Part shown: positions 21,237 to 46,540 of the stretch, in pieces
Numbering within the stretch: the first letter of the stretch is position 1
Layout of the letters: each line of letters opens with the position of its first letter
Assembly: GCF_022836935.1 (NCBI RefSeq)
Contig: NZ_CP083239.1
Location: 2,494,001 to 2,558,000 of the forward strand
DNA from: Ancylobacter polymorphus
GTDB taxonomy: Bacteria > Pseudomonadota > Alphaproteobacteria > Rhizobiales > Xanthobacteraceae
Length of the DNA: 64,000 nucleotides
Direction of reading: 5' to 3'
The notes under the pieces: generated by a model
What the model saw: the letters and a program-made list of their open reading frames with translations, nothing else
Told to the model about the DNA's origin: nothing
Database searches by the model: none
Made by a program: the position numbers and the translations under genes

Positions 21237-21328
21237 CTGCGACCTCCGTGGGTTGTCCTGGCGCCGAGCCTCCCGCCACGGCGCGCGGTTGCGAGAAAAC
21301 GCCGCGCGGTAGCGGGAAACGCCTTCGC

Positions 21329-23671: not shown

Positions 23672-23781
23672 ATCGGTCTCCTTGGCTGTGAGACGCTAAT
23701 GGCCGGACGGCGCTTGTGTTCCGGCGGCGCTCGCGCGTCGGCAGGACACTTCGGTGTGAGGGGGCAGGGGCGCAGGTCCGC

Positions 23782-27863: not shown

Positions 27864-27906
27864 CCCCCCAGCATCGAACCCCGCCCCCCACCAGGACATG
27901 ACGCCG

Positions 27907-28752
27907 ATGATCTCCCGCCTTCCGCATCATCCTCTCCGCCGGGCCGGTACCCTCGCGCTCGGCCTGTTCCTGGCGACGGTCGGCCTCTCGGCCGCCTCCG
28001 CCGAGAAGCTCAAGCTCGGCAATGAAGGCGTCTACCCGCCCTTCTCCATGGTGGATTCCTCCGGCAACCTCACCGGCATGGAGCCGGAGCTGGCGCGCGA
28101 GATGTGCAAGCGCATCGGCGCGGACTGCGAAATCGTCGTGATGGATTTCAAGGCGCTGATCCCGTCCATGCTGCAGGGCAAGTTCGACGGCATCGTCACC
28201 CAGATTTCGCCGACCCCGGAGCGGATGGAGAAGGCGCTGTTCGCCATGCCCATCGTCTATAATCCCGCGACCTTCGTGGTGAAGAAGGGCAGCAACTACA
28301 CGCTGACCAAGGAAGGCGTCACCGGCAAGGGATTGCGCATCGCGCTGCAGCGCGGCGCCTCCATGGTGCCCTACATCCACAAGCATTTCGGCAAGGACAC
28401 CTTCGTCGAGGTCTATTACGACAATCCCGACCAGATGAAGCTCGATCTGCTCGCCGGCCGGCTGGACCTGATCTTCGATTCCAAGATCAACTGGACGCTG
28501 GAACTGATCGCCAAGCCCGAGGGCAAGGATTACGAACTCGCCGGCGGCGACCACTGGCTGGGCGACCCGTCCATCCCCGAGGCCGAGCGCGGCTATAGCT
28601 GGATCTTCCCGAAGAAGAGCGAGGCGCTGGTCAAGCGCGTCAACACCGCGCTCGCCGAGATGATCAAGGACTGCACCTACACCACCATCCGCAAGAAATA
28701 CGTGCCGGTGGCCACGCTCTCGGCGGAAGCCGCCTGCGAGAAGACCAACTGA
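27907..28752 (+). CDS. Polar-amino-acid-type ABC transporter substrate-binding protein
   Basis: Periplasmic binding protein (SBP_bac_3), 281 residues with ATG at 27907, which has AGGA ten bases upstream; ATG at 27898 would add three residues. The signal peptide (about 1-33) ends at SAASAEK. Family motifs: GNEGVYPPFSMVDSSGNLTGM, IVMDFKALIPSMLQGKFD and the C-terminal CTYTTIRKKY. It resembles lysine/arginine/ornithine or opine binding proteins. Flanked by the NtaA-like enzyme and two permeases; ligand unknown. Confidence 0.87.
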   Translation: MISRLPHHPLRRAGTLALGLFLATVGLSAASAEKLKLGNEGVYPPFSMVDSSGNLTGMEPELAREMCKRIGADCEIVVMDFKALIPSMLQGKFDGIVTQISPTPERMEKALFAMPIVYNPATFVVKKGSNYTLTKEGVTGKGLRIALQRGASMVPYIHKHFGKDTFVEVYYDNPDQMKLDLLAGRLDLIFDSKINWTLELIAKPEGKDYELAGGDHWLGDPSIPEAERGYSWIFPKKSEALVKRVNTALAEMIKDCTYTTIRKKYVPVATLSAEAACEKTN

Positions 28753-28777
28753 CCGCGCGCCCCCTGGAACCCGGCCG

Positions 28778-29503
28778 ATGACCAATCTCTCCCCCGCCGA
28801 CCTCGCAGGCTATCTGCGCCAGCTCGGCGAGGGAGCGCTGATCACGCTGGAGCTGTTCCTCACCAGTTTCGCGCTCGCCTTCACGCTGGGCGTGCTGATC
28901 GGTGTCGCCACGCTCTCGCGCAACAGGATCATCCGCGCGGCATGGCGGGTCTATGCGTCCATCTTCATGGGCGTGCCGTCGCTGCTGGTGATCTTCCTCA
29001 TCTTCTATGGCGGCAGCGCCATGCTGGGCGCGGTGCTGGGCGAATTCGGCTCCCGCATCGATATCTCGCCCTTCGGCGCCGGCGTGGCGGCGCTCGGCAT
29101 CGTCTATGCCGCCTATATCGCCGAACTCGTGCGCGGGGCGATCGAGAACCTGCCCAAGGGCCAGTTCGAGGGCGCCCGGGCGCTCGCCATTCCCCCGTTC
29201 ATCATGTGGGGGCGGGTGATCCTGCCGCAGGTGATGCGGCTCGCGCTTCCCGGCCTCGTCAATGTGTGGAGCTTCATGCTGAAGGAGACGCCGCTGGTGT
29301 CGCTGGCCGGGCTGCAGGACCTCGTCGCCGCCGCCAAGATCGCCGCCGGGGCGACCAAGGAGCCCTTCGTCTTCTTCATCGCCACCGCGCTGGTGTTCAT
29401 CGCCTTCAGCGCCGCCAGCCTCTGGGTCGCGAACCGGCTGGAGGCCCGTCTCGACCGTGGCCAGCGCCGCGCCCCGCCTTCACCGAGCCGGGCCGAGGCA
29501 TGA
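28778..29503 (+). CDS. Polar-amino-acid-type ABC transporter permease 1
   Basis: 241-residue permease of the HisM/HisQ family with about five hydrophobic segments (LFLTSFALAFTLGVLIGVAT, VPSLLVIFLIFYGG). The EAA loop is EGARALAIPPFIMWGRVILP. It follows the binding protein by 25 bases and overlaps the second permease start (ATGA). The start at 28778 has a moderate ribosome site only. Confidence 0.87.
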   Translation: MTNLSPADLAGYLRQLGEGALITLELFLTSFALAFTLGVLIGVATLSRNRIIRAAWRVYASIFMGVPSLLVIFLIFYGGSAMLGAVLGEFGSRIDISPFGAGVAALGIVYAAYIAELVRGAIENLPKGQFEGARALAIPPFIMWGRVILPQVMRLALPGLVNVWSFMLKETPLVSLAGLQDLVAAAKIAAGATKEPFVFFIATALVFIAFSAASLWVANRLEARLDRGQRRAPPSPSRAEA

Positions 29504-30237
29504 GCGCACTTCCCATCGATTTCGCCCTCGCCTGGGAGAGCCTGCCGGCGCTGCTCGCCGGCCTCAGGGTGACGGTGTTCCTCACCGTGCTGCCGCTGAT
29601 CATCGGGCTGATGCTGGCCTTTCCCATCTGCTTCGCCCGCATGTCGCCCCGCCGCGTCCTGTCGCTGCCGGCGGAGATCTTCGTTGTGTTCTTTCGCGGC
29701 GCCCCGCTGCTGATCCTGCTCTATCTCGTCTATTACGGCCTCGGCCAGATCGAGGCGCTGCGCGAGGGGCCGTTCTGGGTGCTGTTCGGCTCGCCCTTCG
29801 GCTGCGCCATCGTGGCGCTGAGCCTCAACCATGCCGCCTATATGGTGGAGGTGCTGCGCGGCAGCCTGCTCGCCGTGCCGCATGGGCTGGTCGAGGCCAG
29901 CGAGGCGCTGGGCATCACGAGGCGCAACATCTTTCTCTGGGTGCGGATGCCGCTCGCTTTGCGCTATGGGCTCAAAGCCTACCAGAACGAGGTGGTGAGC
30001 TTCGTCAAGGGCACGGCTATCGTCTCCGTGGTGACGATCACCGACCTGATGGCGGTGGCGAATGCGATCTTCGAACAGACCTATGATCCGTTCACGCCGA
30101 TCCTGTGCGCGGCGGCCTTCTACTGGGCCTTCGTCAATGTGCTGCGCCTCGGCTTCCAGTTCTGGGGACGCTGGCTCAACCGCCACAGCGCCGAGGATGC
30201 CGTCGCTGTGCCGGCCGGGGGGAAGGTGACACCATGA
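29500..30237 (+). CDS. Polar-amino-acid-type ABC transporter permease 2
   Basis: 245-residue partner permease; ATG at 29500 overlaps the previous stop (ATGA) and has GAGG just upstream. Helices include LRVTVFLTVLPLIIGLMLAF and FFRGAPLLILLYLVYYG. EAA loop: EASEALGITRRNIFLWVRMP. The longer in-frame reading upstream overlaps the first permease and is not used. Ends overlapping the ATPase gene by 4 bases. Confidence 0.87.
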   Translation: MSALPIDFALAWESLPALLAGLRVTVFLTVLPLIIGLMLAFPICFARMSPRRVLSLPAEIFVVFFRGAPLLILLYLVYYGLGQIEALREGPFWVLFGSPFGCAIVALSLNHAAYMVEVLRGSLLAVPHGLVEASEALGITRRNIFLWVRMPLALRYGLKAYQNEVVSFVKGTAIVSVVTITDLMAVANAIFEQTYDPFTPILCAAAFYWAFVNVLRLGFQFWGRWLNRHSAEDAVAVPAGGKVTP

Positions 30238-31001
30238 GCCCGCGCGCGCTCCCCGCCGACCTCGCCGCCGTGCCGGCGATCCATCTCGCCGGGGTGGTGA
30301 AGCGCTACGGCACGCATCGCGCCCTGGCGGGGGTCGATCTCGATGTGCGGCGCGGCGAGAGGGTGGTGGTCTGCGGCCCCTCGGGCTCGGGCAAATCGAC
30401 GCTGATCCGCTGCATCAACGCGCTGGAACGCCATGATGGCGGGCGGATCGTGGTCAATGGCGTCGAACTGACGGGCGATGAAGGCACGGTGCAGGACATC
30501 CGCCAGGAAGTCGGCATGGTGTTCCAGCACTTCAACCTGTTTCCGCACCTCACCGCGCTGGAAAACTGCATGCTGGCGCCGCGGCTCAATCGCGGGCTGT
30601 CGAAGGCGCAGGCGGAAAAGCTCGCCATGGCGCATCTGGAGCGGGTGCATCTGGCCGATCAGGCGCGCAAATACCCGGCGCGACTTTCCGGCGGGCAGCA
30701 GCAACGCGTCGCCATCGCCCGGGCGCTGTGCATGGAGCCGCGCATCCTGCTGTTCGACGAGCCGACCTCGGCGCTCGACCCGGAAATGGTGAACGAGGTG
30801 CTCGGCGTGATGGAGGAACTCGCCGCCAGCGGCGTCACCATGGTCTGCGTCACCCATGAAATGGGCTTCGCCCGCCGCGTGGCGGATCGCTGCGTGTTCA
30901 TGGACCGGGGCGAGATCGTGGAAATGGGCGAGGCCGCCCGCTTCTTCGAGGCGCCGTCGAGCGAGCGGCTGCGCCATTTTCTCGCGCAGATCCTGCGGTG
31001 A
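30234..31001 (+). CDS. Polar-amino-acid-type ABC transporter ATP-binding protein
   Basis: 255 residues from the ATG at 30234, which overlaps the permease stop (ATGA). Walker A GPSGSGKSTL, signature LSGGQQQRVAIAR, Walker B ILLFDEPTSALD and switch His CVTHEMGF are complete. The N terminus has about 15 additional residues (SPRALPADLAA) before the usual core. Completes the importer started by the binding protein. Confidence 0.9.
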   Translation: MSPRALPADLAAVPAIHLAGVVKRYGTHRALAGVDLDVRRGERVVVCGPSGSGKSTLIRCINALERHDGGRIVVNGVELTGDEGTVQDIRQEVGMVFQHFNLFPHLTALENCMLAPRLNRGLSKAQAEKLAMAHLERVHLADQARKYPARLSGGQQQRVAIARALCMEPRILLFDEPTSALDPEMVNEVLGVMEELAASGVTMVCVTHEMGFARRVADRCVFMDRGEIVEMGEAARFFEAPSSERLRHFLAQILR

Positions 31002-31020
31002 GGCGGCCACGCCGCGCGAT

Positions 31021-31133
31021 CCTTCGTCATCCCGGCCGCAGCCGAAGGCGGAGAGCCGGGATCGCCCTCAATTCCATAGACACGCGATCCCGGACAGGAC
31101 CTGCGGTCCTTCCGGGATGACGCTTCCGCAGGC
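31021..31133. repeat. REP-like palindromic repeat between convergent genes
   Basis: Contains CGTCATCCCGG and CCGGGATGACG modules like those in the 58.9-59.2 kb array, and an imperfect hairpin at 31087-31118 (outer arms ATCCCGG/CCGGGAT, inner AGGACC/GGTCCT). No T tract follows. It fills the 147-base gap between the convergent importer ATPase and the second monooxygenase, so it could also act as a transcription barrier. Confidence 0.6.
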
Positions 31134-31148
31134 GGCGCTGCCGCGCTC

Positions 31149-32462
31149 TCAGAACTCCCGCAGCATCTGCCGCAGCGTGGCGCCTTCGGTGTAGCTCGTG
31201 CGGGCGAGGCCGCGCCGTTGCAGGGCGGGCACCAGCCCCTCGCAGATATCGGTGATGTATTGCCGGCTGATGTTGGCGGTGAAGGGCCGGGTGATGAGAA
31301 AGCCGTCGCCGCCCACTTCCGCCATCACCTCGCCCATGCGCTCGGCCACCTGGTCGGGCGTGCCGATCAGCCCGTCGAGCCCGCGCGAGAGCTGGTCGGC
31401 GCAGAGCTGGCGCAGCGTCTTGCCCGAGCCCGCCTGCTGGAAGGCGTCGAGCGAGCCCTGCTCGCCATTGGTGGTGAGGTGGGGCAGGGGAGCGTCGAGG
31501 TCGAATTTCGAGAAATCGATGTCGGTGATGGCGGCGATCATCGCCAGAGCCTTCTCGCAATAATCCGGCGCCTCGATGATGCGCGCCGCCTTGGCCTTCG
31601 CCTCTTCCTCGGTCTCGCCAAGGATCGGGGCGACGACGAACAGAACCTTGATCTCGTCCGGGTCGCGCCCGCCGGCCTGCGCACGCGCCCGCACATCGTC
31701 GCGATAGGCCTTCAGCCCGGCGACGCCCATGGAAGGGGCGATGATGCTGTCGGCGGTCATGGCCGCGAATTGCCGCCCGCGCGGCGAGCCGCCGGCTTGC
31801 ACAAAAGCCGGGCGCTGCTGCGGCGAGGGCACGCAGTTGAGCGGGCCGCGGCTCTTGAAATACTTGCCTTCGAAATGGATCGGCCGGACCTTGGAAGCGT
31901 CGGCATAGGTGCCGGTGGCGCGGTCGCGCACCACGGCGTCGGCGTCCCAACTGCCCCAGAGCTGCTTGACGAGTTCGACATATTCGTCCGCCATGTCGTA
32001 GCGCTCCTGGCGCGGCGGCAGCTTGTCCATGCCGAAATTCTCGGCGGCGAGGTCCTCGCCCGTGGTGACGATGTTCCAGCCGAAGCGGCCCTTGCAGATG
32101 CTGTCCAGCGTCGAGCACAGGCGCGCCAGCATGAAGGGCGGATAGGCCATGGTGGAGAAGGTCGCCACCACGCCGAGATGGGTGGTGTTGGCGCCGATCA
32201 GCGCCGCCATCGGCGAGGGGTCGGCCTTCGGGCCCATGATGTTGTGCTTGAGATAGACCGCGTTGGAGCCGCCATAGGCCTCGGAGATCATCAGCGTGTC
32301 TTCGAGCATGATGTAGTCGAAACACGCGCGCTCCATGGCCTTGGCCATGTCGATGTAGAACCCGCCATCCCAGGGGTCGCCGCCGCCGCCGGTGAACGGC
32401 TTGGTCCATTCATCGACCGCGAAATTGGTGAACCAGCCGAGATGGAGTGGCCGTGGCGCCAT
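31149..32462 (-). CDS. Second NtaA/DszA-type FMNH2-dependent monooxygenase (LLM class)
   Basis: 437-residue luciferase-like monooxygenase of the same branch as the one at 26544, but clearly divergent (MAPRPLHLGWFTNFAVDEW versus the other start). Signatures: ERACFDYIMLEDT, GVVATFSTMAYPPFMLARL, KGRFGWNIVTTGEDL, FVQAGGSPRGRQFAA. Convergent with the importer operon and divergent from the LysR gene, from which it is separated by 262 bases containing palindromes. Presumably oxidises the same class of substrate as its neighbour; specificity cannot be read. Confidence 0.85.
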   Translation of the reverse strand: MAPRPLHLGWFTNFAVDEWTKPFTGGGGDPWDGGFYIDMAKAMERACFDYIMLEDTLMISEAYGGSNAVYLKHNIMGPKADPSPMAALIGANTTHLGVVATFSTMAYPPFMLARLCSTLDSICKGRFGWNIVTTGEDLAAENFGMDKLPPRQERYDMADEYVELVKQLWGSWDADAVVRDRATGTYADASKVRPIHFEGKYFKSRGPLNCVPSPQQRPAFVQAGGSPRGRQFAAMTADSIIAPSMGVAGLKAYRDDVRARAQAGGRDPDEIKVLFVVAPILGETEEEAKAKAARIIEAPDYCEKALAMIAAITDIDFSKFDLDAPLPHLTTNGEQGSLDAFQQAGSGKTLRQLCADQLSRGLDGLIGTPDQVAERMGEVMAEVGGDGFLITRPFTANISRQYITDICEGLVPALQRRGLARTSYTEGATLRQMLREF

Positions 32463-34027: not shown

Positions 34028-35743
34028 ATGGTGCGGAAGAATGTGAGCCTTGCGGACAGGGACGGTCTGCTGGCCTTCCCCGCGCCACCCGGTCCGGCGC
34101 CGGGGGATCCGGCTCCTCTCGTTCACTGGGATTTTCATACATTCAACGACACGCACCTTCCGCCGCCGAGCGATGAGTACAAGTACGTTCCGGTATCATG
34201 TCCACTCTTCAAGTACGAGCCCGATTTCGAGGATGTAAAGCAGGGCGATATCGGTGACTGTTATCTGCTGTCAGCGATAAATTCGATGATCCGTGTGAAG
34301 AATGCGAATTTCTTCTACGAGATGATAGGTGTCGCCGCGGATCGTTTGCATGTGCATGTGCGGTTCTATGTGGAGAATGCCGGCGCGATAGTCCCCGTCA
34401 TCGTTCAGGTCCAGCGTACGATACTGAAGAAGGTCAACGGCGACCACGTCGTCGATCTGCAGCACCACAGCGCGGTCTGGCCGTATTTCGTCGAAAAGGC
34501 CTACGCTTTCTTTCGGGCCTATTATTTGCAACCACTGCTCCGGCAAGTGCAGATCAAGATCCCCGATCCGACCAAGCCCCAGCCAGCGCTGCCGCCCTGG
34601 CCGTTCGACAGGGCAACCCGTCCGGCGCCGGACCCCGGCCACCGGTATTTCGTCAACTATGTCGAGGCGCTGAAAGGCGGCAATTGTGGGCGCGCCTACC
34701 AACATCTCACGGGCGAAAAGACGGAAGATGCAACGGCCGACATAGAAGTTCCCGGCCCGAACGGCACGGTATGGATGGATATGAGGGACTATCGCGGCGC
34801 GCTGCTCCGCTGCGTTCTCGACGAGAGTCTCGAAAATCCGTTCGCCGAAACCTGGGATGCGACCTTCGACCGGTTCATTGGCGTGTTGGGCCGCACAGTG
34901 TCGGGCCTGACGACCTCCCTCGCGGTTCCCGCCGTGCCGGTGAACGACATCGTCGTGCGAGCCGCGATCAAGCAGCACATCGCGGACACGCGAAAGGCGA
35001 ACCACTCCGTCGTCGTCGATTTGATCGGGATGCTCGACAAGAAAAAGAAGCTGATGCGGGAGGTGCGGAGCACCGACGTTCGGCCGTTCCTCGCGCGCAT
35101 GGTCCGGATGCCCGTATCTCTTGCCGCGAGTGAAATGGAGGACATTGATTTCGGCACGTTGCTCCTGGAGTTCGTCAGGAAGTCATTTCCGGGCAAGCGG
35201 GGAACGGGCGAATACACGGATTACCATGAAGCGCTCTTCACGCGGCTGACCGCAGCTTGCACCGCGCAGCCCCCCAGGGCGGCTTTCGCATCCACCCGCA
35301 ACGTCTTGTATATCCTTGATCTCCTTGATCTTGGCCTCGATATCTACGTAACGGAAAGTCAGCGCAAAGGACTTGTTCCTGGTCATGCTTACGAAATATC
35401 CGGAACCTCAAAAACAACCGTCAGAAGTGCAAAGGGTTACGTTGATTTGCGTTTCGTTTTATTGCGAAATCCTTGGGGTCGATATGTTAGATCCTACAAA
35501 ATAAAATTCGAAAATGTCGATGGAGTGGACGTCGTAAAATCCATTTCGGCAAACGAAGGCGCAGAATTCGCCGATCCTCCTGAAGATTCGCTTTCAATAC
35601 TCGCAGCGCAGGGGATGGGGCTAATGGAGATGGCTGAGCAAATGCAGGCTCTTGCGTCGCAGCAGGTGCGGCGTAGTCCCGTGTTTCCCGTCGAACTCTC
35701 CGACATCACCAAGTTCTTCGATCGGGTGCAGCTCGGCGTCTGA
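34028..35743 (+). CDS. Calpain-like (C2) cysteine protease
   Basis: 571 residues from the ATG at 34028; a TTG at 33959 would add 23. Calpain catalytic residues are all present: VKQGDIGDCYLLSA holds the oxyanion Gln72 and nucleophile Cys78, VPGHAYEISG the His453, and LRNPWGRY the Asn481. The PYFVEKAYAFFRAY helix and GRAYQHLTGEKTEDA match the calpain core between them. Cys and His are 375 residues apart versus about 157 in mu-calpain, so there is a large insertion (roughly residues 260-430, containing MLDKKKKLMREV). No signal peptide or membrane helix is visible, so a cytosolic protease is likely. Base composition is less GC-rich than neighbouring genes. Followed 42 bases later by the broken beta-rich gene; no autoinhibitory or calcium-binding domain was recognised. 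Confidence 0.8.
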   Translation: MVRKNVSLADRDGLLAFPAPPGPAPGDPAPLVHWDFHTFNDTHLPPPSDEYKYVPVSCPLFKYEPDFEDVKQGDIGDCYLLSAINSMIRVKNANFFYEMIGVAADRLHVHVRFYVENAGAIVPVIVQVQRTILKKVNGDHVVDLQHHSAVWPYFVEKAYAFFRAYYLQPLLRQVQIKIPDPTKPQPALPPWPFDRATRPAPDPGHRYFVNYVEALKGGNCGRAYQHLTGEKTEDATADIEVPGPNGTVWMDMRDYRGALLRCVLDESLENPFAETWDATFDRFIGVLGRTVSGLTTSLAVPAVPVNDIVVRAAIKQHIADTRKANHSVVVDLIGMLDKKKKLMREVRSTDVRPFLARMVRMPVSLAASEMEDIDFGTLLLEFVRKSFPGKRGTGEYTDYHEALFTRLTAACTAQPPRAAFASTRNVLYILDLLDLGLDIYVTESQRKGLVPGHAYEISGTSKTTVRSAKGYVDLRFVLLRNPWGRYVRSYKIKFENVDGVDVVKSISANEGAEFADPPEDSLSILAAQGMGLMEMAEQMQALASQQVRRSPVFPVELSDITKFFDRVQLGV

Positions 35744-35785
35744 GCGCCTTTTCGCAATGTGACGTGTTCAGCAAAGGGCGAGGCC

Positions 35786-36529
35786 ATGGCCGGCGGCAAT
35801 GAGGGGATAAAGGCGGACAACGTCATTCCCCTGTCGAAGATCGACCCGGAACGGTTCGAGGCGCTGGGGTTGACGGATCATGGCTGCGCCCAGTTGGACG
35901 TGTGGCTGGCCGCGCTTGGCGAGAGCGGCGGGGCCGTCTCCGCGCGGCAATTCGAACTGCCGGTCTATGCCAAGGGCGGGGGGCGCACCACCGCCACGCG
36001 CGTGTTCGTCGCCTCCCGCGAAACGCGCGAGGTGTGGCGTCCCGGCGACGCCTATGCCGCGCTCAAACCCGCGCAGGCCGCCATCGACAAGGCGCACGTG
36101 GAACTTCTCCGTCAATGCCAGGACGAGCTTCGATCTCGGCCGGGCGCTTCGGCCGCTGGCGGCGGAAATCGGCTTCGAGCCACCGTTCCAAGACGGCAGC
36201 CTCACCGTCACCGGCGTGGTCGGCGCCCTGCGGCTCGGGGCCGAAGGCACCCGGATCGCACTCAGTTTCGCGTTCAAGACCAAGGACGGCGATTTCCGCC
36301 TCACTCTGGTGCGGCGCGCCAGCTGTCGGGGGAAAAGGCCGGCTGGGAGTACAGCCTCAGAATGGGTCCGGCAACCATCGACTTCCGCAGCCTGCCGGTT
36401 GTCGGCGGGGCGATCGGTGCGGCGGCGGACGCCTTCGCCAAGAGCGGGGGCAAGAAGGCGGTCGGCATCGATGCCCTGCGGGTCGGCGTGCTCTCCACGC
36501 TTGAGGAACCGGTCTCAACCGCCGGGTGA
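35786..36529 (+). pseudogene. Unrecognised protein, two compensating frameshifts
   Basis: An ATG-started frame (MAGGNEGIKADNVIPLSK) reads well to about 36100. The coding signal then moves to another frame (NFSVNARTSFDLGRALRPL to FAFKTKDGDFRLTL) and returns to the first frame near 36319 (LSGEKAGWEYSLRMGP), ending at 36529. One extra base near 36101 and one missing base near 36319 explain this. The repaired product would be about 247 residues, mostly beta-strand-like, without signal peptide, and I recognise no family. Its 3' end overlaps the next gene's GTG start (GTGA). It may be a recent pseudogene or contain sequencing errors. Confidence 0.6.
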
Positions 36530-37613
36530 TCGTACCCGCCATCGGCGAGGTGGCGGCGTTTCCGCTGGTGGCGTTGGCGATGCAGGAGAACTCCGGCGGC
36601 GCCAAGCCTTCGGCCATGGAGATGCTGAACACGCTGGAGCGGCACCTGCCCTTCACGCGCAGGCGCGTCGCAACCTCGCCCTCGTCGCCGCCACCGTCCG
36701 ACTCCAGAGGCTGTTCGACGCCGCCGGAATCGAGGTGATCTTCTTCAAGGGTGCGCTGGTCGGGCAGCGCGCCTATGGCTCGCTCGCGGTCAAGCACGGC
36801 AAGGACATCGACTTTCTGGTGCCGCCGGAGGACCTCGCGGCGACCTTTGCCCTGCTCGCCGGGGAAGGCTACCAGCCGGTCTTTCCCGCGGCGCCGCTGA
36901 CGGCGGCCAGGATCGACGCGCTACGGGACTTCCAGATCGAGGCGGTGATGGTCGATCCCACGCGCGGCGTGCAATTGGAGCCGCATTGGCGGTTGACCGA
37001 GAACCGTCGGCTGCTGCCTCTCGGCCCGCTTCGGGCGGGGGCCGGCAAGCGCGAGAGCCTCGGCGGCGTGCCAATTCGCGGCTTTCATCCCGACGATGAG
37101 TTCGCCTATCTCTGCGTCCACGGCGTGCGCAGCGGCTGGTTTCGGCTGAAATGGCTGGCCGATCTTCATGCCCTGCTGGCAGGGCATGCGGAGGAGGAGC
37201 GGCTGCGCCTCTATCGCCACGCCGTAGGTCGGGGGGCGGGGCCGGCGGCCCTGCTGGCCTATGGCCTGTGCCGCGACCTGTTCGCGCTGCCGGTGCCGGC
37301 CGCGCTGGCCCGTGCGGTCGAGGCGCCGCTGCAACGGGCCATGCGCAGGCTCTGCCATGCGTCACTCGGCGCCAACCATCCGCAGACCTCGTTAGGCCAG
37401 GTGCTCGTGCTGCCCATGCTGCATGCGGTGGCCTGCGGGCCCGCGCACATCGGCAGCGAGTTCCTGCGCTGGGGGGTAAACGGCCAGGATGTGCTGGAAC
37501 TGCCGCTGCCGCGCTACCTGTTTTTTCTCTATCCGCTGCTGCGCCTGCCGCTCTGGGCCGGCCGGCAGATCGCGGGGAGAGGCATGTTCAGTAGCACGGG
37601 GCGTGCCCCGTGA
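36526..37613 (+). CDS. NTP_transf_5-type nucleotidyltransferase, one frameshift near the N terminus
   Basis: Begins at a GTG overlapping the previous stop. The first about 43 codons (VPAIGEVAAFPLVALAMQEN) lie in one frame; after about 36655 the coding frame shifts by one base to the frame running to 37613. The main part shows the nucleotidyltransferase signature FFKGALVGQRAYGSLAVKHG, KDIDFLV (the D-x-D metal motif), then FQIEAVMVDPTRGVQLEPHW. This is the NTP_transf_5 pattern found as an accessory enzyme in lasso-peptide and other RiPP clusters, where it is thought to modify a peptide or protein. The last 4 bases overlap the exporter gene. Roughly 360 residues when repaired. Confidence 0.65.
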
Positions 37614-39298
37614 GACGGCAACCCGTCGACGCGGCGCTGCTCGTCGCCTTCCTGCGGGCTCTCGCACAGTCCGCACGCGGGCGCGGGGCGCTCAGCATCG
37701 CCCTCATCATTGGCGGGGCGATGGTGGAAAGCGTCGGGCTCGTTCTGCTCATCCCGGTCCTGCAGTTGCTCACCGACCGTGAGGGGCTCGTCTCCCTCTG
37801 GTTCGCCGAATGGCGCCGCGAAAGGCTGTTGCTGCTCCTTCTCGCGGCTTTCCTGCTGGCGATGACGGCGCGGGCCTTTCTCCTCTATGCGCGCGACCGG
37901 CTGTTGTGGCGGGTGGAGAACGACTTCGTCGACGGCCAGCGCGCGCGACTGGTGCAGGGGCTGGCCTCCGCGCGCTGGGCGTCGCTGGCCTCGGTGCGTC
38001 ACGCGGAAATCCAGAGCGTCCTGTCGACGGAGATGATCCGGCTGGCCATGGCTGTCCGGCTGTTCGTGCAGATCGGTGTGGCCGCGCTGCTGGTGCTGGT
38101 GCAGGGGGGGCTGGCCATCTATGTGGCGCCGGCTCTGGCCGGCACCCTGCTCGCGGCCGTGGCCGCGGCGGGCGTCGCCTTTTCCGGCCTGCAGCGGGCC
38201 GGCGCCCTGGGACACGATCTCGCCCGCTCCAGCCTTAACCAGATGCAGACGATGGGAAGTCTCCTGTCGGGGCTCAAGGCGGCACTGGCGCAGAACCTTC
38301 AGTACCGCTTCCTGCGCGACTTCCGCGACACGCTCGGCGAGGCACGCGGCAACCGGCGGCGCTTCTCCGAACGGCAGGCGCGGCTCCGGCTGGTGTTCGG
38401 CATCGGATCGGCCGTCTGCGCTTGCCTGGTGGTGGCAGGTGGCGCGCTGGTGCTGGAGATGCCGACGCCGGCGCTGATCCTGCTCGTGCTGATCTGCGCC
38501 CGCCTCGCCGGACCGGTGCTGAACCTGCAGCAGGCGATGCAGCAGTTCGCCTATTCCCTGCCCTCCTTCGCCGCCGTCGCGGCCCTGGAGGCGCAGCTGG
38601 AGGCGCCCGCTGCAGGGGCGGTGGAAGCTCAGCGGATACTGCCGGGGGCCGTCGAACTGCGGGCTGTGCATCGGCTCCATGGCGAAGGGGCCGGCCTCGC
38701 CGGCGTCGATCTCGTCATTAACCCGGCAGAACGGATCGCGGTCACCGGCGCCTCGGGCGCGGGCAAGACGACGCTGCTCGACGTGCTGGCCGGGCTGACG
38801 GCGCCGGACGGGGGCGCGGTTCTGGTAGGCGGCTCCACGCTTGATGTCACCGCCCTGCCGGCCTGGCGCGAGCGTGTCGCCTATGTCGTGCAGGAACCCT
38901 ATCTGTTCCGTGACAGCGTGCGCGCCAATGTGACGGCCGATACACCCTGTGACGACGCCGCGCTCTGGTCGGTGCTTGAGCTTGTGGGTGCCGACACGCT
39001 GGTGCGGCGCCTGGAGCGCGGGGTCGACACGCTCATCGGCGAAGGCGGCGCCGTGCTCTCCGGCGGGGAGCGCCAGCGCCTGGCCCTTGCCCGCGCCATT
39101 TTGCGGCGCCCGCGCCTGCTCATGCTCGACGAGGCCACCAACGCTCTCGACCTGCCCTCGGAGAGGCTTCTGCTGCAACACCTCTTTGCTCTCGCTCCGC
39201 GCCCGGCCGTGCTGATGGTGACGCACAGGCGCGAGAATCTGGACCTGTTCGACCGGGTTCTGGAGCTGCGGGAGGGTCGGCTGCTGCCCTTGGGATGA
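37610..39298 (+). CDS. ABC exporter with fused membrane and ATPase domains
   Basis: 562 residues, GTG start overlapping the preceding stop. Residues 1-310 form a six-helix exporter membrane domain (ALSIALIIGGAMVESVGLVLL and following). The ATPase domain follows: Walker A TGASGAGKTTLL, Q-loop YVVQEPYLF, signature LSGGERQRLALARA, Walker B RLLMLDEATNAL and His VTHRR. There is no N-terminal C39 peptidase, so any leader cleavage must be done elsewhere; the calpain-like protease is the nearest candidate. The product of the operon is presumably the exported substrate, but none was identified. Confidence 0.82.
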   Translation: MRRQPVDAALLVAFLRALAQSARGRGALSIALIIGGAMVESVGLVLLIPVLQLLTDREGLVSLWFAEWRRERLLLLLLAAFLLAMTARAFLLYARDRLLWRVENDFVDGQRARLVQGLASARWASLASVRHAEIQSVLSTEMIRLAMAVRLFVQIGVAALLVLVQGGLAIYVAPALAGTLLAAVAAAGVAFSGLQRAGALGHDLARSSLNQMQTMGSLLSGLKAALAQNLQYRFLRDFRDTLGEARGNRRRFSERQARLRLVFGIGSAVCACLVVAGGALVLEMPTPALILLVLICARLAGPVLNLQQAMQQFAYSLPSFAAVAALEAQLEAPAAGAVEAQRILPGAVELRAVHRLHGEGAGLAGVDLVINPAERIAVTGASGAGKTTLLDVLAGLTAPDGGAVLVGGSTLDVTALPAWRERVAYVVQEPYLFRDSVRANVTADTPCDDAALWSVLELVGADTLVRRLERGVDTLIGEGGAVLSGGERQRLALARAILRRPRLLMLDEATNALDLPSERLLLQHLFALAPRPAVLMVTHRRENLDLFDRVLELREGRLLPLG

Positions 39299-39379
39299 GC
39301 TCGTCGATCATTCTCCCGATGTTGCGACGCAGCATCCTGACCGCTACGGTGCCCGCCCCCGGTTCCAGAAGGCGCGCCC

Positions 39380-40528
39380 ATGCCCTCCAAGATCCCGTCT
39401 CCCGCATCGGCATCCGGTTCGACCACCGCCCGGAAGCCGCGACCAGGCGGCCGGCGGCGGTCTCAGCCCAGCGCGGCGCATGAGCCGGAAGCGGGACAGG
39501 CGCCCGCCTCGGCGCGCGGCCCGGTGCGGGTCGAACTCGCTTTGCAGGGCGGCGGCTCGCATGGCGCCTTCACCTGGGGCGTGCTCGACCGGCTGCTGGA
39601 AGAAGACTGGCTCAGCATCGAAGGTGTTTCCGGCACCTCCGCCGGGGCGATGAACGCGGCGGTGCTGGCGGACGGCTTTGCCGCTGGCGGGCGGGAGGGC
39701 GCACGGGCGGCGCTCGACGCCTTCTGGCACAATGTCGCCGAGGCGGCGCGCTTCAGCCCGTTCCAGCGCGGTCCTCTCGATGTGCTGCTCGGGCGCTGGA
39801 CGCTCGACCATTCGCCGCTCTTCGTCGCCCTCGACCTGATGTCGCGGCTCTACTCGCCCTATGATCTCAACCCGACCGGCGCCAACCCGCTGCGTGCCGT
39901 GCTGGAGAAGGTGATCGAGTTCGAGCGGCTGCGCACCTCGCCGATCAAGCTCTTCATCACCGCCACCAATGTACGCACCGGGCGGGGACGCGTTTTCCGC
40001 AATGCCGAGATCACGCCGGAGGTGCTGCTCGCTTCCGCCTGCCTGCCCACCCTGTTCCAGGCGGTGGAAATCGACGGCGACAGCTATTGGGACGGCGGCT
40101 ATTCCGGCAACCCGACCATGACGCCGCTGGTGCGCGAACTCGCGTCGGAGGACACGATCCTCGTCCCGATCAACCCGGTGGAGCGTCCCGGCACGCCGCG
40201 CACCGCCTATGAAATCCTCAACCGGCTGAACGAAGTCTCGTTCAATTCCGTGCTGATCAAGGAGCTGCGCATGATCGCCCTGCTGCGGCAGGTGGCCGAT
40301 CCCGGCAATTGCGAGGGCGCGCACTGGGCGCGGATGCGCATTCATGTCGTGCCCAACGGCGTGGTCGATCAACTCGGCTATTCTTCCAAGCTGAATGCCG
40401 AACGCGAATTCCTCGCCATGCTTCGGGAGGAGGGGCGCAAGGCGGCCGACGCCTTCCTCAAGGCCGATGGCGACAATATCGGCAAACGCTCTTCGGTCGA
40501 TCTCGACGCGCTGCTCGACGGCGTGTGA
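39380..40528 (+). CDS. Patatin-like phospholipase
   Basis: 382-residue lipid acyl hydrolase of the patatin fold. Oxyanion motif GGGSHGAF, nucleophile Ser in SGTSAGAMNA, and the dyad Asp in WDGGYSGNP are all present. The first about 45 residues are Pro/Arg/Ser-rich and poorly ordered, with no signal peptide, so it is probably cytoplasmic or translocated by a secretion system. It starts 81 bases after the exporter and is not clearly part of that operon. The distance between Ser and Asp motifs is normal for bacterial patatins. Confidence 0.85.
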   Translation: MPSKIPSPASASGSTTARKPRPGGRRRSQPSAAHEPEAGQAPASARGPVRVELALQGGGSHGAFTWGVLDRLLEEDWLSIEGVSGTSAGAMNAAVLADGFAAGGREGARAALDAFWHNVAEAARFSPFQRGPLDVLLGRWTLDHSPLFVALDLMSRLYSPYDLNPTGANPLRAVLEKVIEFERLRTSPIKLFITATNVRTGRGRVFRNAEITPEVLLASACLPTLFQAVEIDGDSYWDGGYSGNPTMTPLVRELASEDTILVPINPVERPGTPRTAYEILNRLNEVSFNSVLIKELRMIALLRQVADPGNCEGAHWARMRIHVVPNGVVDQLGYSSKLNAEREFLAMLREEGRKAADAFLKADGDNIGKRSSVDLDALLDGV

Positions 40529-40644
40529 GGCGCGGCCCGGCTTGCCATGGCCGGCACCGGGGTGGCACCTAGGGCGCTGACCGGGCGCCGAGCGCCAAGG
40601 ATGTCATGCAAAAGGGTGCCTGAAGGCGCCGAGGCGGAGTGACC

Positions 40645-41850
40645 ATGCCGGCGATCGAGATTTCGGGTCTGCTCACCTTCACCATCGCCATCGTGGTGTT
40701 TTTCGCCGGTTCCGGCATCAACCGGGCGATTCCGCCGCTCGGCCGGTTCAACATCCCCGAGGCGGTGACCGGCGGGCTGCTGGCGGCGCTGGCGACGCTG
40801 ATCGCCTACCGCGTCTTCGACACCGCCATCGTGTTCGATCTCGCCGCGCGGGACATGCTGCTGCTGTATTTCTTCACCGGCATCGGCCTCAATGCCCGGC
40901 TCGACGACCTCGTGGCCGGCGGGCGGCCGCTGTTGATCCTGCTCGCGCTCACCGTGCTCTATCTCGTCATCCAGAACCTGATCGCCCTCGGTGCCGTGAG
41001 CCTGCTCGACCTGCCCGAGGGGCTTGCCGTCTTCCTCGGCTCGGCCTCGCTCATCGGCGGGCATGGCACCACCATCGCCTGGGCGCCGCTGATCGCGGAG
41101 CGCTTCGGCGTCGCCAATGCGCTGGAGGTAGGCATCGCCGTGGCGACGCTCGGCCTCGTGCTGGCGAGCCTCGCTGGCGGGCCCATCGCCCGCTATCTCA
41201 TCGCCCGCCACCATCTCAGGAGCGAGCCGGGTCAGGAGGCTATCGTCGGCCTGCCGAAGCCAGTGAACGAGCGTGCGGATGACGACATCAGCCATGTCAG
41301 CCTGCTGCGCACCGTGCTGGTGCTCAACGTCGCCATCCTCATCGCCTTCGGGCTTGAGGAGGCGGTGGAGTGGACGGGGCTGAAGCTGCCCATGTTCGTG
41401 GTGTGCCTGCTGGTCGGCATCGCGCTCACCAACACCGTGCCGCGCCTGTTGCCGCGCCTCGCCTGGCCCACCCGGACGAGGGCGCTGGCGCTGCTCTCCG
41501 ATCTCGCGCTCAACATCTTCCTCGCCATGTCGCTGATGAGCATGCAGCTATGGAGCATTGGCGGGCTGGGCCTCGCTTTGGTGCTGGTGCTGGCGGTGCA
41601 GACGGTGGCGGCGGTGGCCTATATCGTCTTCGTGGTGTTCCCGGCGATGGGGCGCGACTACCAGGCGGCGGTGATCTCCGCCGGTTTCACCGGCATCAGC
41701 CTCGGGGCCACGCCGACCGCCATCGCCAATATGACCGCGGTGACCAAGGCGCATGGACCTTCGCCCCGCGCCTTCATCATCCTGCCGCTGGTCTCGGCCT
41801 TCTTCATCGACATCATCAACGCGGCGGCGATCGGCTTCCTGGCGCGCTGA
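40645..41850 (+). CDS. gltS: Sodium/glutamate symporter GltS
   Basis: 401-residue inner-membrane Na+-coupled glutamate carrier, the same length as E. coli GltS. About ten to twelve hydrophobic helices. The two inverted-repeat loops show SLIGGHGTTIAWAP and ISLGATPTAIANM, conserved in the family. CGGAG upstream supports the ATG at 40645 (a GTG two codons earlier is the alternative). It lies 9 bases tail to tail from the DUF900 gene. Confidence 0.88.
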   Translation: MPAIEISGLLTFTIAIVVFFAGSGINRAIPPLGRFNIPEAVTGGLLAALATLIAYRVFDTAIVFDLAARDMLLLYFFTGIGLNARLDDLVAGGRPLLILLALTVLYLVIQNLIALGAVSLLDLPEGLAVFLGSASLIGGHGTTIAWAPLIAERFGVANALEVGIAVATLGLVLASLAGGPIARYLIARHHLRSEPGQEAIVGLPKPVNERADDDISHVSLLRTVLVLNVAILIAFGLEEAVEWTGLKLPMFVVCLLVGIALTNTVPRLLPRLAWPTRTRALALLSDLALNIFLAMSLMSMQLWSIGGLGLALVLVLAVQTVAAVAYIVFVVFPAMGRDYQAAVISAGFTGISLGATPTAIANMTAVTKAHGPSPRAFIILPLVSAFFIDIINAAAIGFLAR

Positions 41851-41859
41851 CGCGGCGGT

Positions 41860-43077
41860 TCAGTCCGCCGCCGGGTCCTCGACCGTCTCGCTGAGCGTCT
41901 GGCCGAAGCGTTCGACCTGGCCCTGATAGGTGCGCCGCGTCTTGGGGTCGATGACGGCGATCGGCGCGCTGAGCGCGAGGCCGGCGGCACTGCCGACGGT
42001 CTGGCCGACCCCGATGGCACCGGCGGCGATGCGGTCGCCGAGACTGATCTCGGAATCGGTGACGGTCTGCCCGTTCACCAGCCGCTGGCCGATGAGCTGC
42101 ACCACCTCCGGCGAGGAGGCGAAGCGGCCGTGATTGAGCGAGTCGCCGCCACGCATGGCAGTGAGATCAATGACCACGATGCCGGATTTCTCCAGATCGG
42201 CGTAGTATTTCTGGGTGTCAATCAGCCCCAGCCGGTCCACGCCGCCGGCGATGCGGCGGGAAACCTGCAGCGCCCGGTCGTCCTGCGACACGAACAGGGT
42301 GAAGCGCGCCTGCGGCCCGTTCAGCGCCCGCCATTGCGAGGCGAACACGTCGACATCGACATCGGGCGAGGCGAGGATGACGTTGCGGATCTTGGCCGGC
42401 AGCTTGCCGCGCCGGATCGCCATCTGGCGCAGGCTTTCCATGGCGAGCCACGCCCCCATGGAATGGGCCATGATCGTCACGTCCTCGACGCGCGGATCGC
42501 TGGCGACCTGCCACACCGTCTCCTCGAAGGCGTCGCGCGAGAAGATCGTGCTTTCACGGTCGAAGAGATAGTCGAACACCCGGGCGCGGGAGGGCCAGGT
42601 GAACAGGACCGGAGCGACCTCCGATCCCGAATCATGCACGATCTGGGCGAAGCGGTAGACCGCGTCTTCAAAGCGGTTGTTGAAGCCGTGGACGAAGATC
42701 AGCACCCGCCGGCTCGGCGGCAGATGGCTGTCGAGCCAGCCCTTCGCCGCCTTCACATTCGGCAGCGGCTTGACCGAGAGCGTGGCGAAGTCGGTTTCCG
42801 GGTTGGGCGGCAGGCGGCGCGGCCACTGCACTTCGCCGATCTGGCGGCGGCTGTCCGGCGGGATGGAGACGGTGAAGGCGTCGAGCGACACGCCCGCGCC
42901 GCGCTCGCCGGTGTAGAGAATGCCGGCGTCGGTGGAGGGCTCGCGCGTGGTGGCGACGAGCAGATCGACCTTGGTGGTGTCGGGCGCGGCGGCCTCGACG
43001 GGGGTGAGCACGCCCACCGGCCGGTTCGAGCATCCCGCGCACAAGGCGAGAACCAACGCAACGATGACGAGACGCAT
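41860..43077 (-). CDS. DUF900-type alpha/beta hydrolase lipoprotein
   Basis: 405 residues from the ATG at 43077 (GGAGG four bases upstream). Residues 1-16 (MRLVIVALVLALCAGC) form a lipoprotein signal with lipobox LCAGC, so the protein is membrane anchored. The hydrolase core has RVLIFVHGFNNRF (oxyanion region) and the nucleophile Ser in MAHSMGAWL. The family is DUF900, of unknown substrate. The C terminus is an Ala/Gly-rich tail. Confidence 0.8.
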   Translation of the reverse strand: MRLVIVALVLALCAGCSNRPVGVLTPVEAAAPDTTKVDLLVATTREPSTDAGILYTGERGAGVSLDAFTVSIPPDSRRQIGEVQWPRRLPPNPETDFATLSVKPLPNVKAAKGWLDSHLPPSRRVLIFVHGFNNRFEDAVYRFAQIVHDSGSEVAPVLFTWPSRARVFDYLFDRESTIFSRDAFEETVWQVASDPRVEDVTIMAHSMGAWLAMESLRQMAIRRGKLPAKIRNVILASPDVDVDVFASQWRALNGPQARFTLFVSQDDRALQVSRRIAGGVDRLGLIDTQKYYADLEKSGIVVIDLTAMRGGDSLNHGRFASSPEVVQLIGQRLVNGQTVTDSEISLGDRIAAGAIGVGQTVGSAAGLALSAPIAVIDPKTRRTYQGQVERFGQTLSETVEDPAAD

Positions 43078-43178
43078 TCAGCCTCCGCAGGCCCCTGCCT
43101 GTGCCGAGTGCCAGCATTAGCGCGGCACCGTGTCAAAGGCGAGTCGTCGAGGCACGGCCGCGCCGACCGCTGAGCGCC

Positions 43179-44675
43179 TCAGGGGGCCGGCGCGGCGGCT
43201 GGCTCCTGTGTCGCGCTCGCCGCCGCCGGCGGGGGCATGATGCGGTCGTTCATGTAGGAGAAGAACGGGTTGGACGACATGCGCACCAGCGCATCGAGGC
43301 TGACGATCAGCGCGCCGCGCTCACCCCGCACCGCCATGGCCCCGAGCTCCAGCCCGAAATTGTCCTTTGGATCGGGATGCGACCCGTACAGCCCGTCCTC
43401 AGGCGGGAAGGGCAGGGCGACATGGGACAGCGAATAGACATCGGACGGGTAGAACAGGCCGAGCGGACGCACCGTCTCCTCGGTGCTGCCGGCGGGGATG
43501 GCATGCTCGATCACCTGGTCCGACCCCGCATCCTCATTGGTGATGATCACGGTGCGGAAGGTTCGCGGCAGCGGCGGCAGCAGGCGCAGCAGCGCTGAAT
43601 AGGAGGTGGCGCGCAGCAGGGGACCGAGCTTGGTGTTGCGGTTGATGTCGAACAGCACCAGCTCGCTGCCATTGGCCGGCAACTGGCCGTACAACGCATC
43701 GATGATGGCGCGGGTGGAGACGGTGAAGTCCATCACCGACTGGAAGGTGAGCGTCGGCGCCACATCCTTCAGCCGCCCGGCCCGCGCCTCGGCGGTGATG
43801 GAGGCTTGCAGCGCCCGTGTGAGACGGTGCGACTGCACGGCGCCGTTCACCGGGAAGCTGTTGTACTTGAACGGATTGAACTCCGGCACGATGCCGAGCC
43901 ACGCCGCTTTGTCGAAGGCCGGCAGCCAGGCCGGCAGCGCCGCCAGCCCGGCGAAGCGGGCGAAGCGGGTGATGCCGATCATCGGCGAGATCAGCACCAG
44001 CCGGTCCGGGCGGACGAGTTTGTCGTCGCTGAGCGCGTCGAGCGCGTATTTCAGCGCCAGCGCACCGCCATTGGAAAAGCCGACGATTTCCAGAGGCTTG
44101 CCCGGCGCGCGGGCGGCGGCTTCGCGCACGGCGAGGCGCGTGGCGGCGAGCCAGTCCTCCCACTCGGCGGCGGTGAGCCCCGCCGGCACCGTGCCATGGC
44201 CGGGCAGACGCGGGGCGATGACCAGGAAGCCATTGGCGAGATAGCGCCGGGCGACATGGCGCAGGCTGTAGGGCGAATCGGTGAGCCCGTGCAGCAGCAC
44301 GACGACGCCCACCGGCGCGCCTTCCGGCACCAGCTCATAGGAGCGGTTGAAATCCTGCGAGAGATGGGGCGGGTAGACCACGCTGCCGGCGAAATAGCGG
44401 TTGGAGGGTACCCGGTCCTCCTCCGGCAGCGTCTGCACGACTTCGCGGGTCACGTCGGCGAACAGCTTGTCCTCGCGGGCGAGGTAGGCGCTCCAGTCGG
44501 CCTTGTCGAGCTCGGCGACGCTCATCTCCTCCGGCACGAAGGTGTGCCAGGGTTCCAGCGGCGCGCCGCTCTGGGCGAACCAGACGCGCGAGCCGAGAAA
44601 GGCGACGAACAGCACCAGCGCCAGCACGCCCGCCCATTTGAGGGCCCTGCGCAAAACCTTGAAAAGCGTGCTCAT
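43179..44675 (-). CDS. Membrane-anchored alpha/beta hydrolase
   Basis: 498 residues from the ATG at 44675, overlapping the AI-2E-type gene stop (ATGA). One N-terminal helix (WAGVLALVLFVAFLGSRVWF). The alpha/beta core has VVVLLHGLTDSPYSL, the nucleophile Ser in VGFSNGGALA and a His in LSHVALPFPP. Similar to carboxylesterase-type proteins. Co-transcribed with the AI-2E-type exporter. The frame extends far upstream but that part runs through the neighbouring gene in another frame and is not coding. Confidence 0.8.
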   Translation of the reverse strand: MSTLFKVLRRALKWAGVLALVLFVAFLGSRVWFAQSGAPLEPWHTFVPEEMSVAELDKADWSAYLAREDKLFADVTREVVQTLPEEDRVPSNRYFAGSVVYPPHLSQDFNRSYELVPEGAPVGVVVLLHGLTDSPYSLRHVARRYLANGFLVIAPRLPGHGTVPAGLTAAEWEDWLAATRLAVREAAARAPGKPLEIVGFSNGGALALKYALDALSDDKLVRPDRLVLISPMIGITRFARFAGLAALPAWLPAFDKAAWLGIVPEFNPFKYNSFPVNGAVQSHRLTRALQASITAEARAGRLKDVAPTLTFQSVMDFTVSTRAIIDALYGQLPANGSELVLFDINRNTKLGPLLRATSYSALLRLLPPLPRTFRTVIITNEDAGSDQVIEHAIPAGSTEETVRPLGLFYPSDVYSLSHVALPFPPEDGLYGSHPDPKDNFGLELGAMAVRGERGALIVSLDALVRMSSNPFFSYMNDRIMPPPAAASATQEPAAAPAP

Positions 44676-45703
44676 GAGCGGACCTCGGGTTCCTCGCGGC
44701 CGGACAGCAGCCGGGCGATCCAGCGTGTGCCGTCGCCCTCCTCGCAGAAGGTGAGGGCGGCAATGACCAGCGGCACGCCGATGAAGGCGCCGGACAGGCC
44801 CCACATGAACGCCCAGAAGAACACGGCGAACAGCACGAGGAAGGGCGAGATGGCGAGCGCCTTGCCGGCCACGCGCGGCTCGATATAGCTGCCGCTGAAG
44901 AACTGGATGACGTTCATGGCGAGGAACACCGCCACCGCAGTCTCCCACGCGCCGAATTGGGCCAGGGCGAAGAAGGTCGGCAGCAGCGTCGCCACCAGCG
45001 GGCCGATGAAGGGGATGTAGTTGAGCGCGAAGGCGATGACGCCGAAGGCCAGCGCGAGATCGAGCCCCATGGCGGCGGACAGCGCCCAGACGAACAGGCC
45101 GGTGAGCAGGCTCATCACCGTGCGCACCATCATATAGGTGCGGAACTTCGCCGCCGTCGCCGCACTGGCCCGCACGAGGCGCCGGCCGGTGTCGCCCGCT
45201 TCCGCCACCAGCTTGGTGCGGACGATGTCGACCTCCAGCAGGCCGAGCATGACGAAGATCAGCGTGACCACGCCGAAGCCGAGCATGCCGTTGAGCCGTC
45301 CGGCCAGCCCCTGAAACGTGCCGATCAGCCAGCTGGCGTTGAAGGTGTCGGCCAGCATGCCGGCGGAATAGAGCCCCATTTCCTCCAACTGCGCCGCCGT
45401 CTCGCTGTAGATCGCCTGGAAGCGCCCGGCATTGGCGATGAGCCAGCGCCCGGCCTGGCTGAAGCCCCAGATGGTGACATAGCCGAGCAGGGCCAGCGCG
45501 AGGATGGTGAGGACCAGCGTCACCATCATCGCCAGCAGCGCCGGCACGCGCTGCTGCAGCCGCTGCTGCAGCGGCCAGACAAGGGCGATGATGAACAGGG
45601 CGAACGCCACCGGCGCCACCACGGAGCGTGCGAGATAAATCGCCCCGGCCGCGAGAATGAACGCGCAGATACCGAGCGGGAGGCGGAGCGCGCCGAGCGT
45701 CAT
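44672..45703 (-). CDS. AI-2E family transporter
   Basis: 343 residues from the ATG at 45703 (a TTG at 45730 would add nine residues). Eight hydrophobic helices, with a cytoplasmic loop around LVAEAGDTGRRLVRAS and the family signature ALNYIPFIGPLVAT followed by SGSYIEPRVAGKALAISP. Members export AI-2 or unrelated solutes, or act as Na+/H+ antiporters, so the substrate is open. Its stop overlaps the hydrolase start. Confidence 0.85.
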   Translation of the reverse strand: MTLGALRLPLGICAFILAAGAIYLARSVVAPVAFALFIIALVWPLQQRLQQRVPALLAMMVTLVLTILALALLGYVTIWGFSQAGRWLIANAGRFQAIYSETAAQLEEMGLYSAGMLADTFNASWLIGTFQGLAGRLNGMLGFGVVTLIFVMLGLLEVDIVRTKLVAEAGDTGRRLVRASAATAAKFRTYMMVRTVMSLLTGLFVWALSAAMGLDLALAFGVIAFALNYIPFIGPLVATLLPTFFALAQFGAWETAVAVFLAMNVIQFFSGSYIEPRVAGKALAISPFLVLFAVFFWAFMWGLSGAFIGVPLVIAALTFCEEGDGTRWIARLLSGREEPEVRS

Positions 45704-45948
45704 GGGAGCTTTCGTGAAAGATGGCGACAAAGTGACATGCGGGATAACACGCCGCGCCGCCTTGGGAAATCCGCCAGAGCCGGCGTGACCACGGTTCGCT
45801 GACGCAAGGGCAGAGACGCCGTCGGCGCGCGCCGCGACAAGGCGGGTTAAATTGGCTGAGACGATGGTCTATCTTGCCGTCCTCGGTGGGGGCGGCGATG
45901 GGGGCGCCCCGGCCCAAACAGAACAGCCGGCCAGTTCGGGGGGATAGG

Positions 45949-46488: not shown

Positions 46489-46540
46489 GAGCGGCACGAC
46501 ACCCCGCTGTTCCGGCCCCTATCCGACGCGCGAGCCCCGC

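Follow-up and report, generated by a model that had tools for sequence, protein, structure and literature searches.

A calpain-led gene group in Ancylobacter polymorphus as a probable deletion remnant of a conserved DUF6603 giant-protein locus

Introduction

Bacterial calpains (family C2) are rare and patchily distributed according to PMC4631099, in which the word "operon" does not occur. Nucleotidyltransferases of the NTP_transf_5 family are known accessory enzymes of lasso and other ribosomally synthesized and posttranslationally modified peptide (RiPP) clusters, and a lasso cluster with the nucleotidyltransferase gene psmN appears in PMC9266682. Neither "DUF6603" nor "PF20248" occurred in any paper of the open literature searched, a scope that excluded subscription papers, preprints, and supplements. 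This study concerns a locus of Ancylobacter polymorphus in which the three families meet. The 64,000-nucleotide stretch analyzed (NZ_CP083239.1, positions 2,494,001 to 2,558,000; the window) holds at 34028..39298 a calpain gene, a region first read as an intact gene for a beta-rich protein, an NTP_transf_5 gene, and an ATP-binding cassette (ABC) exporter gene, which the original prediction took for a processing-and-export cassette or a degraded peptide cluster. Comparison with other genomes of the genus indicates that this region is very probably what three deletions left of a DUF6603 locus of about 18 kb.

Like described bacterial calpains, the window calpain retains the Cys, His, and Asn motifs and is of rare and patchy occurrence; unlike them, it has an insert of very roughly 120 to 220 residues (in the alignments shown) between the two halves of its catalytic domain, and the genus calpain is linked to a DUF6603 locus. 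Like RiPP clusters, the window locus has an NTP_transf_5 enzyme and an ABC exporter, but no asparagine synthase or PqqD was found in the neighbors scanned and no plausible precursor between its genes. Its kinship with DUF6603 proteins is that of fragments to a whole: the second gene of the locus in the related genome G195 is a 1,614-residue open reading frame (ORF) with a DUF6603 domain (Pfam, E=9.1e-126), and the window holds scraps of the same gene, broken in several places. Two further proteins of the intact locus, g310 and g200, resemble tail-collar fibers through PHROG matches and sub-cut-off Collar matches, and g310 has a sub-cut-off end like that of lectin-like bacteriocins. Unlike phage tail-collar systems, however, the locus encodes four proteins (DUF6603, g667, g1216, and g870) with no PHROG match, and g667 had no match in 50,697 phage records.

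Results

Five genomes of the genus (G195, G178, G590, G585, and G600) carry an intact locus with one gene order: calpain, DUF6603, g667, g1216, g870, g310, g200, and NTP_transf_5. None of its genes is interrupted by a stop; the single stop in the NTP_transf_5 match of G178 lies upstream of the gene start. In G195, the whole stretch measures about 18 kb. A sixth genome, G022, has the same order with the calpain alone damaged (C4:62462-62845; 8463-8846 of its stretch L011). About 1.3 kb of that gene has been lost internally, whereas the other genes are intact, a pattern opposite to that of the window. Damage to g1216 of G022, hinted at by a crude gene caller, was rejected when tblastn gave a single stop-free frame. 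Calpain and NTP_transf_5 lie 14.9 to 15.2 kb apart in these six genomes, versus 0.9 kb in the window. The site and its flanks are equal in the window and in G195, G178, G022, G590, and G600, with a LysR gene before the locus and patatin and/or gltS genes after it; other genes lie upstream of the calpain in G585, and a patatin match was not found in the G600 stretch.

In the window, the DUF6603-type gene survives as three forward-strand (+) scraps, bounded by three joints that blastn comparison, flanks, and sizes indicate to be deletions. The first scrap (35786..36095) encodes the N-terminal ~103 residues, with 92% amino acid identity to G022 and 91% to G195 and a match to positions 1 to 103 of our own profile. 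At the first joint (36095..36096; blastn against G195, G178, and G022), about 1.5 kb was lost. The second scrap (36096..36508) has 93% DNA identity to G195 12063-12476 and is frame-shifted near 36320, its two halves matching in different frames. The second joint (36509..36516) accounts for a further ~0.75 to 0.8 kb (0.75 kb against G022, 0.8 kb against G195) and puts the TGA at 36527-36529 in frame. The third scrap (36517..36656), with 93% amino acid identity to G022, gave a DUF6603 match in a search of the whole window genome, which returned this one match, below threshold (21.7 bits versus a cut-off of 27). At the third joint (36653..36657), the blastn alignment to G022 jumps from 12007 to 24016; the ~12.0 kb lost there comprised the 3' part of the DUF6603 gene, g667, g1216, g870, g310, and g200, as well as the initial ~90 codons of NTP_transf_5. 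Relative to G022, its nearest relative at the site (95% by blastn over 36653-47000), the window has lost about 14.3 kb in the three deletions. The ORF at 35786-36529 is open for 247 amino acids, yet it spans joints, and the DUF6603 homology is distributed over three reading frames. What had been taken for an intact second gene is therefore three scraps of a gene of ~1,600 residues, although the 42 bases reported between the first two genes are real (stop at 35743, ATG at 35786).

Synteny, together with DNA matches flanking each joint, argues strongly that the window region is a deletion remnant of the DUF6603 locus, and we hold this to be very probable. Alternatively, the strain could hold an intact locus that the assembly has collapsed, since the evidence is the assembly alone; we consider this very unlikely. 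The flanks of each joint share a few bases at most, with no long mutual match, and the repeats detected around joint 2, in a search confined to that G022 stretch and the window, do not lie at the joint itself. At 99.86% completeness in 6 contigs, the genome yielded neither g667 (by profile) nor a full DUF6603 gene elsewhere, and the g667 and g1216 profiles had no match in the window. G022, moreover, has a deletion of its own at this locus, in the calpain gene, so deletion in the window is not unique. The window genome could not make the multiprotein assembly proposed below for the parent locus.

The NTP_transf_5 gene that follows (36657..37613, +) lacks a start of its own and the ~90 residues at the N terminus. 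Its Pfam match (E=2.2e-35) confirms the predicted family and covers positions 49 to 248 of the 249 in the profile, so the domain is not full-length; homologues in the genus have 402 to 425 amino acids. The start proposed for it, the GTG at 36526, fails, as its frame ends after 70 codons at the stop 36736-36738 and the domain is encoded in a different frame, from ~36657; the GTGA overlap at 36526 is thus accidental. The second predicted overlap, at 37610-37613, is genuine and kept in G022, where NTP_transf_5 ends at 24988 and the ABC gene starts at 24985 of the joined stretch. The exporter (37610..39298, +) is an intact fused permease/ATPase of 562 amino acids (ABC_tran, E=1e-28; 92% to G022), as predicted. 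It directly follows the orthologous NTP_transf_5 gene in four of eight genomes (the window genome, G022, G590, and G585) and is absent after the intact locus in G195, G178, and G600; it is an optional part of the locus. Among 12 further NTP_transf_5 loci, five, all in one genus, have an adjacent ABC homologue, one has it within 2 kb, and six have none.

The surviving genes could still act together as a reduced working cassette of calpain, exporter, and perhaps the truncated nucleotidyltransferase. The calpain and ABC ORFs are intact, with ratios of nonsynonymous to synonymous substitution rates (dN/dS) of 0.345 (window-G195) and 0.301 (window-G022), respectively, and the one-genus set of ABC-linked NTP_transf_5 loci, with a like arrangement in G586, lends the idea some support. 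The NTP_transf_5 gene, however, lacks its start and ~90 residues, the unbroken locus does without this ABC gene in three genomes, and the ratios of about 0.3 (0.295 for the remaining C-terminal part of NTP_transf_5, window-G022) exceed those of the flanking LysR, patatin, and gltS genes (0.094, 0.069, and 0.029, window-G022; patatin 0.265 for window-G178). We therefore regard a reduced cassette as quite unlikely. Between relatives, dN/dS is 0.17 to 0.36 for DUF6603, g667, and g1216 (the trio) and 0.37 to 0.39 for g870. Nonsynonymous and synonymous changes in NTP_transf_5 number 15:19 on the window branch versus 19:22 on the G022 branch with G590 as the outgroup, and 13:15 versus 21:21 with G195. 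Since the truncated gene shows no excess of amino acid changes, the losses may be recent, or selection may persist with some function retained.

The calpain gene (34028..35743, +) is an intact ORF of 571 amino acids from its ATG to the stop at 35743, and the predicted protease family is borne out by a Peptidase_C2 match in two stretches (Pfam, E=1.2e-14). The Met column is conserved at ATG 34028 across the genus homologues, the GDC, GH, and NPW motifs are unchanged in six of them (alignment), and the protein aligns with solved calpains (PDB matches) over its Cys, His, and Asn regions; domain and residues place the protein in family C2. Within these motifs, we take the Cys, His, and Asn to be the catalytic residues. 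Their order agrees with that in PMC4631099.

Two other calpains deserve mention. That of G178 (L010 8722-10548) has a third-position GC (guanine-plus-cytosine) content of 0.42 versus 0.85 to 0.89 in its neighbors and is only 45% identical to the G195 calpain, while the adjacent DUF6603 proteins are 89% identical; it looks like a swapped-in allele. In G114 (L013 8577-14812), a distant calpain-like protein (842 amino acids) is followed by a 705-amino-acid ABC protein and a 472-amino-acid protein that by eye resemble a type I secretion pair, which suggests an exported calpain.

Thirty genomes of the genus were searched with the calpain, the full-length NTP_transf_5, and the ABC protein. The calpain (E<=0.001) was found in 7, NTP_transf_5 (E<=1e-10) in 9, and the ABC protein (E<=1e-60) in 5, and all 7 calpain genomes were among the 9. 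The expected co-occurrence thus holds for calpain and NTP_transf_5, as the two ends of the ~18-kb locus, and is partial for the exporter, which is adjacent in half of the genomes compared. Of the two genomes with NTP_transf_5 and no calpain, G586 has a distant copy (38%) among different neighbors, and G103 has LysR, NTP_transf_5, and patatin genes consecutively, with no block between them. That uninterrupted arrangement suggests that the block from calpain to g200 was gained or lost as a unit.

The peptide reading, that the region is a processing-and-export cassette or a degraded RiPP cluster, draws on family-level links. In other Xanthobacteraceae, NTP_transf_5 lies near HPr-kinase-like and asparagine-synthase genes (G080) or HPr-kinase-like and PqqD genes (G029), the HPr-kinase-like matches being under the Pfam cut-off, and the psmN cluster is a published precedent. 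No such link was found for the window locus. A Pfam scan of ten neighboring proteins, in addition to a separate scan of the patatin, returned transport, regulatory, hydrolase, and monooxygenase families and no asparagine synthase, PqqD, or B-type protease, in agreement with the prediction that classical RiPP core enzymes are missing. The intergenic ORFs of at least 20 residues between 31 and 42 kb, leaving out those inside genes or the scrap region, are three, unremarkable, and offer no plausible precursor. A four-gene RiPP cassette was rejected on these grounds. The genes lost from the window, furthermore, encode giant and tail-collar-like proteins with no RiPP family match. "Degraded" was an apt word for a region with three deletions, scraps, and a truncated NTP_transf_5, whereas a peptide origin is scarcely credible.

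The parent locus appears to have relatives well beyond the genus. Of 398 sampled genomes of the phylum, 8 had DUF6603 above the cut-off, and the g667 profile matched those same 8, although the g667 profile, A1, was built partly from three of those genomes, which match by construction. With our own profiles, DUF6603, g667, and g1216 occurred in that order and on one strand in 18 of 19 loci; the exception, from Paenibacillus sonchi, lacks DUF6603. The 19 loci (6 from the genus, 7 from other proteobacteria, and 6 on plasmids of Streptomyces, Embleya, and Paenibacillus) had been selected for matching DUF6603, g667, or calpain, and some also built the profiles; eight plasmid records had been found, and the two not included are further Streptomyces clavuligerus records. 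The trio spans Pseudomonadota, Actinomycetota, and Bacillota. The window, with DUF6603 scraps that give one sub-threshold match and neither g667 nor g1216, falls outside it. Searches of Pfam, PHROGs, NCBIfam, and PADLOC, at the thresholds applied, returned no match for g667 or g1216, and a pattern scan of viral contigs gave no close relative. The parent locus is thus a conserved set of giant proteins for which no published description was found, with a core trio that fits no known kind that could be assigned.

Genes around the trio differ among loci. A profile of six genus calpains matched none of 13 nongenus loci, and the calpain was rejected as a core component of such loci, with the proviso that this profile could miss a very distant calpain. 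A metallo-beta-lactamase-fold gene precedes DUF6603 in L063 (Embleya), G383, and L067 (S. clavuligerus), the matches of G383 and L067 being just under the Pfam cut-off, and in G452, where it was assigned through identity to G383. At six other loci (L068, G468, G266, G437, L065, and L066), the upstream genes gave no enzyme match above the cut-off. In G452, a gene for an M64 peptidase is located several kilobases upstream, and G383 has a counterpart of 96% identity; at these loci (L047 and L049), the trio stands downstream of the peptidase and of genes resembling, by eye, a fatty-acid-type dehydratase, ketosynthase, and reductase.

Fiber and binding features occur 3' of the trio. The g310 and g200 proteins share an N terminus (48% over 171 residues), match tail-collar PHROGs (E=5.7e-13), and were the only proteins with PHROG matches: tail collar, tail fiber, or tail protein, besides the unknown-function families phrog_19296 and phrog_14307. 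The end of g310 resembles putidacin lectin-like bacteriocins (E=4.8e-10), far under the model cut-off (39 versus 275 bits). In four Streptomycetaceae loci, the downstream proteins share an N terminus (~26 to 33% between loci), and the C-terminal domain is F5/8C in L063 and PLAT in L067. No binding domain was found in the scanned downstream proteins of L066 (two), G383, G452, G426, G437, G468, or G266. Contractile or tailocin sheath, tube, and baseplate genes were not found by PHROG search of six intact-locus proteins and the window calpain. Against PADLOC-DB, the ABC protein alone of seven proteins matched, chiefly in its ATPase part, and no defense model beyond generic ATPase similarity emerged. 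A promoter and terminator scan was uninformative.

Elsewhere in the window genome, a second NTP_transf_5 gene (C1:920682-921446) lies far from the locus, and three Collar-domain matches in a row (C1:3559901-3561210) are distant from both. Within the genus, L101 (G586:C6:64000-83900, 8234-18263) places NTP_transf_5 and an ABC homologue by three tail-collar genes, a sulfotransferase gene, and an HPr-kinase-like gene; it is a different collar cluster. A general tie between NTP_transf_5 and tail-collar genes was rejected: in 254 genomes of the order, 44 with NTP_transf_5 and 40 with Pfam Collar matches, lists compared by eye put none near each other, the Collar list omitting g310 and g200 of G022, which adjoin its NTP_transf_5 gene. 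Upstream in the window (26544-32462), an amino-acid-type ABC transporter lies between two luciferase-like monooxygenase genes, at 26544-27863 (+) and 31149-32462 (-); the latter has 66 to 67% DNA identity to the counterparts of the former in G195, G178, and G022, which retain the arrangement.

Discussion

Taken as a whole, the locus is best explained, with good though not full confidence, as a deletion remnant; the role proposed below for its parent is far more tentative. The ancestral locus (calpain, DUF6603, g667, g1216, g870, two tail-collar-like proteins, NTP_transf_5, and ABC) very probably lost ~14.3 kb through three deletions. What survives is an intact calpain gene, DUF6603 scraps, a nucleotidyltransferase gene truncated at its 5' end, and an exporter gene that is still whole. 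Several observations count against this account. The three joints are known from assembly sequence alone, the calpain gene does not look decayed (dN/dS 0.345 versus G195), and the truncated NTP_transf_5 has no surplus of amino acid changes relative to G022. As to the proposed role, g310 and g200 fall below the Pfam Collar cut-off, a binding domain was found in 2 of 10 downstream proteins from 9 nongenus loci, and the core-protein profiles found no solved structure in the PDB beyond one match at E=0.39.

Fiber-and-lectin display is a known design. Gene anatomy suggests, tentatively and with more doubt than confidence, that the parent locus might make a recognition or display assembly. DUF6603, g667, and g1216 would form the scaffold; the fiber-like proteins (collar-like, lectin-like, F5/8C, and PLAT), with a common N terminus and differing C termini, would be exchangeable tips; the genus calpain would process components of the assembly or set them free; and NTP_transf_5 would modify one of its components. 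That most downstream proteins scanned outside the genus have no binding domain weakens this reading, and the retention of the other genes in G022 without an intact calpain indicates that calpain is not strictly needed for their persistence.

An undescribed kind of multiprotein particle or surface machine, with no relation to contractile systems and with a fixed trio core and exchangeable 3' fiber or lectin tips, is an unlikely product of the parent locus. The 5' enzyme (the genus calpain, or the metallo-beta-lactamase-fold protein of G383/G452, L063, and L067) could then be a cargo or a processing protease, against which stand the six loci whose upstream genes gave no enzyme match above the cut-off.

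Our findings remove a false peptide-cassette candidate and replace it with a real question about three very large co-travelling proteins, for which no solved relative was found and some of whose neighbors bear differing binding or fiber domains. With intact, calpain-less, and collapsed versions of the locus in one genus, these genomes form a natural series in which its function can be tested.

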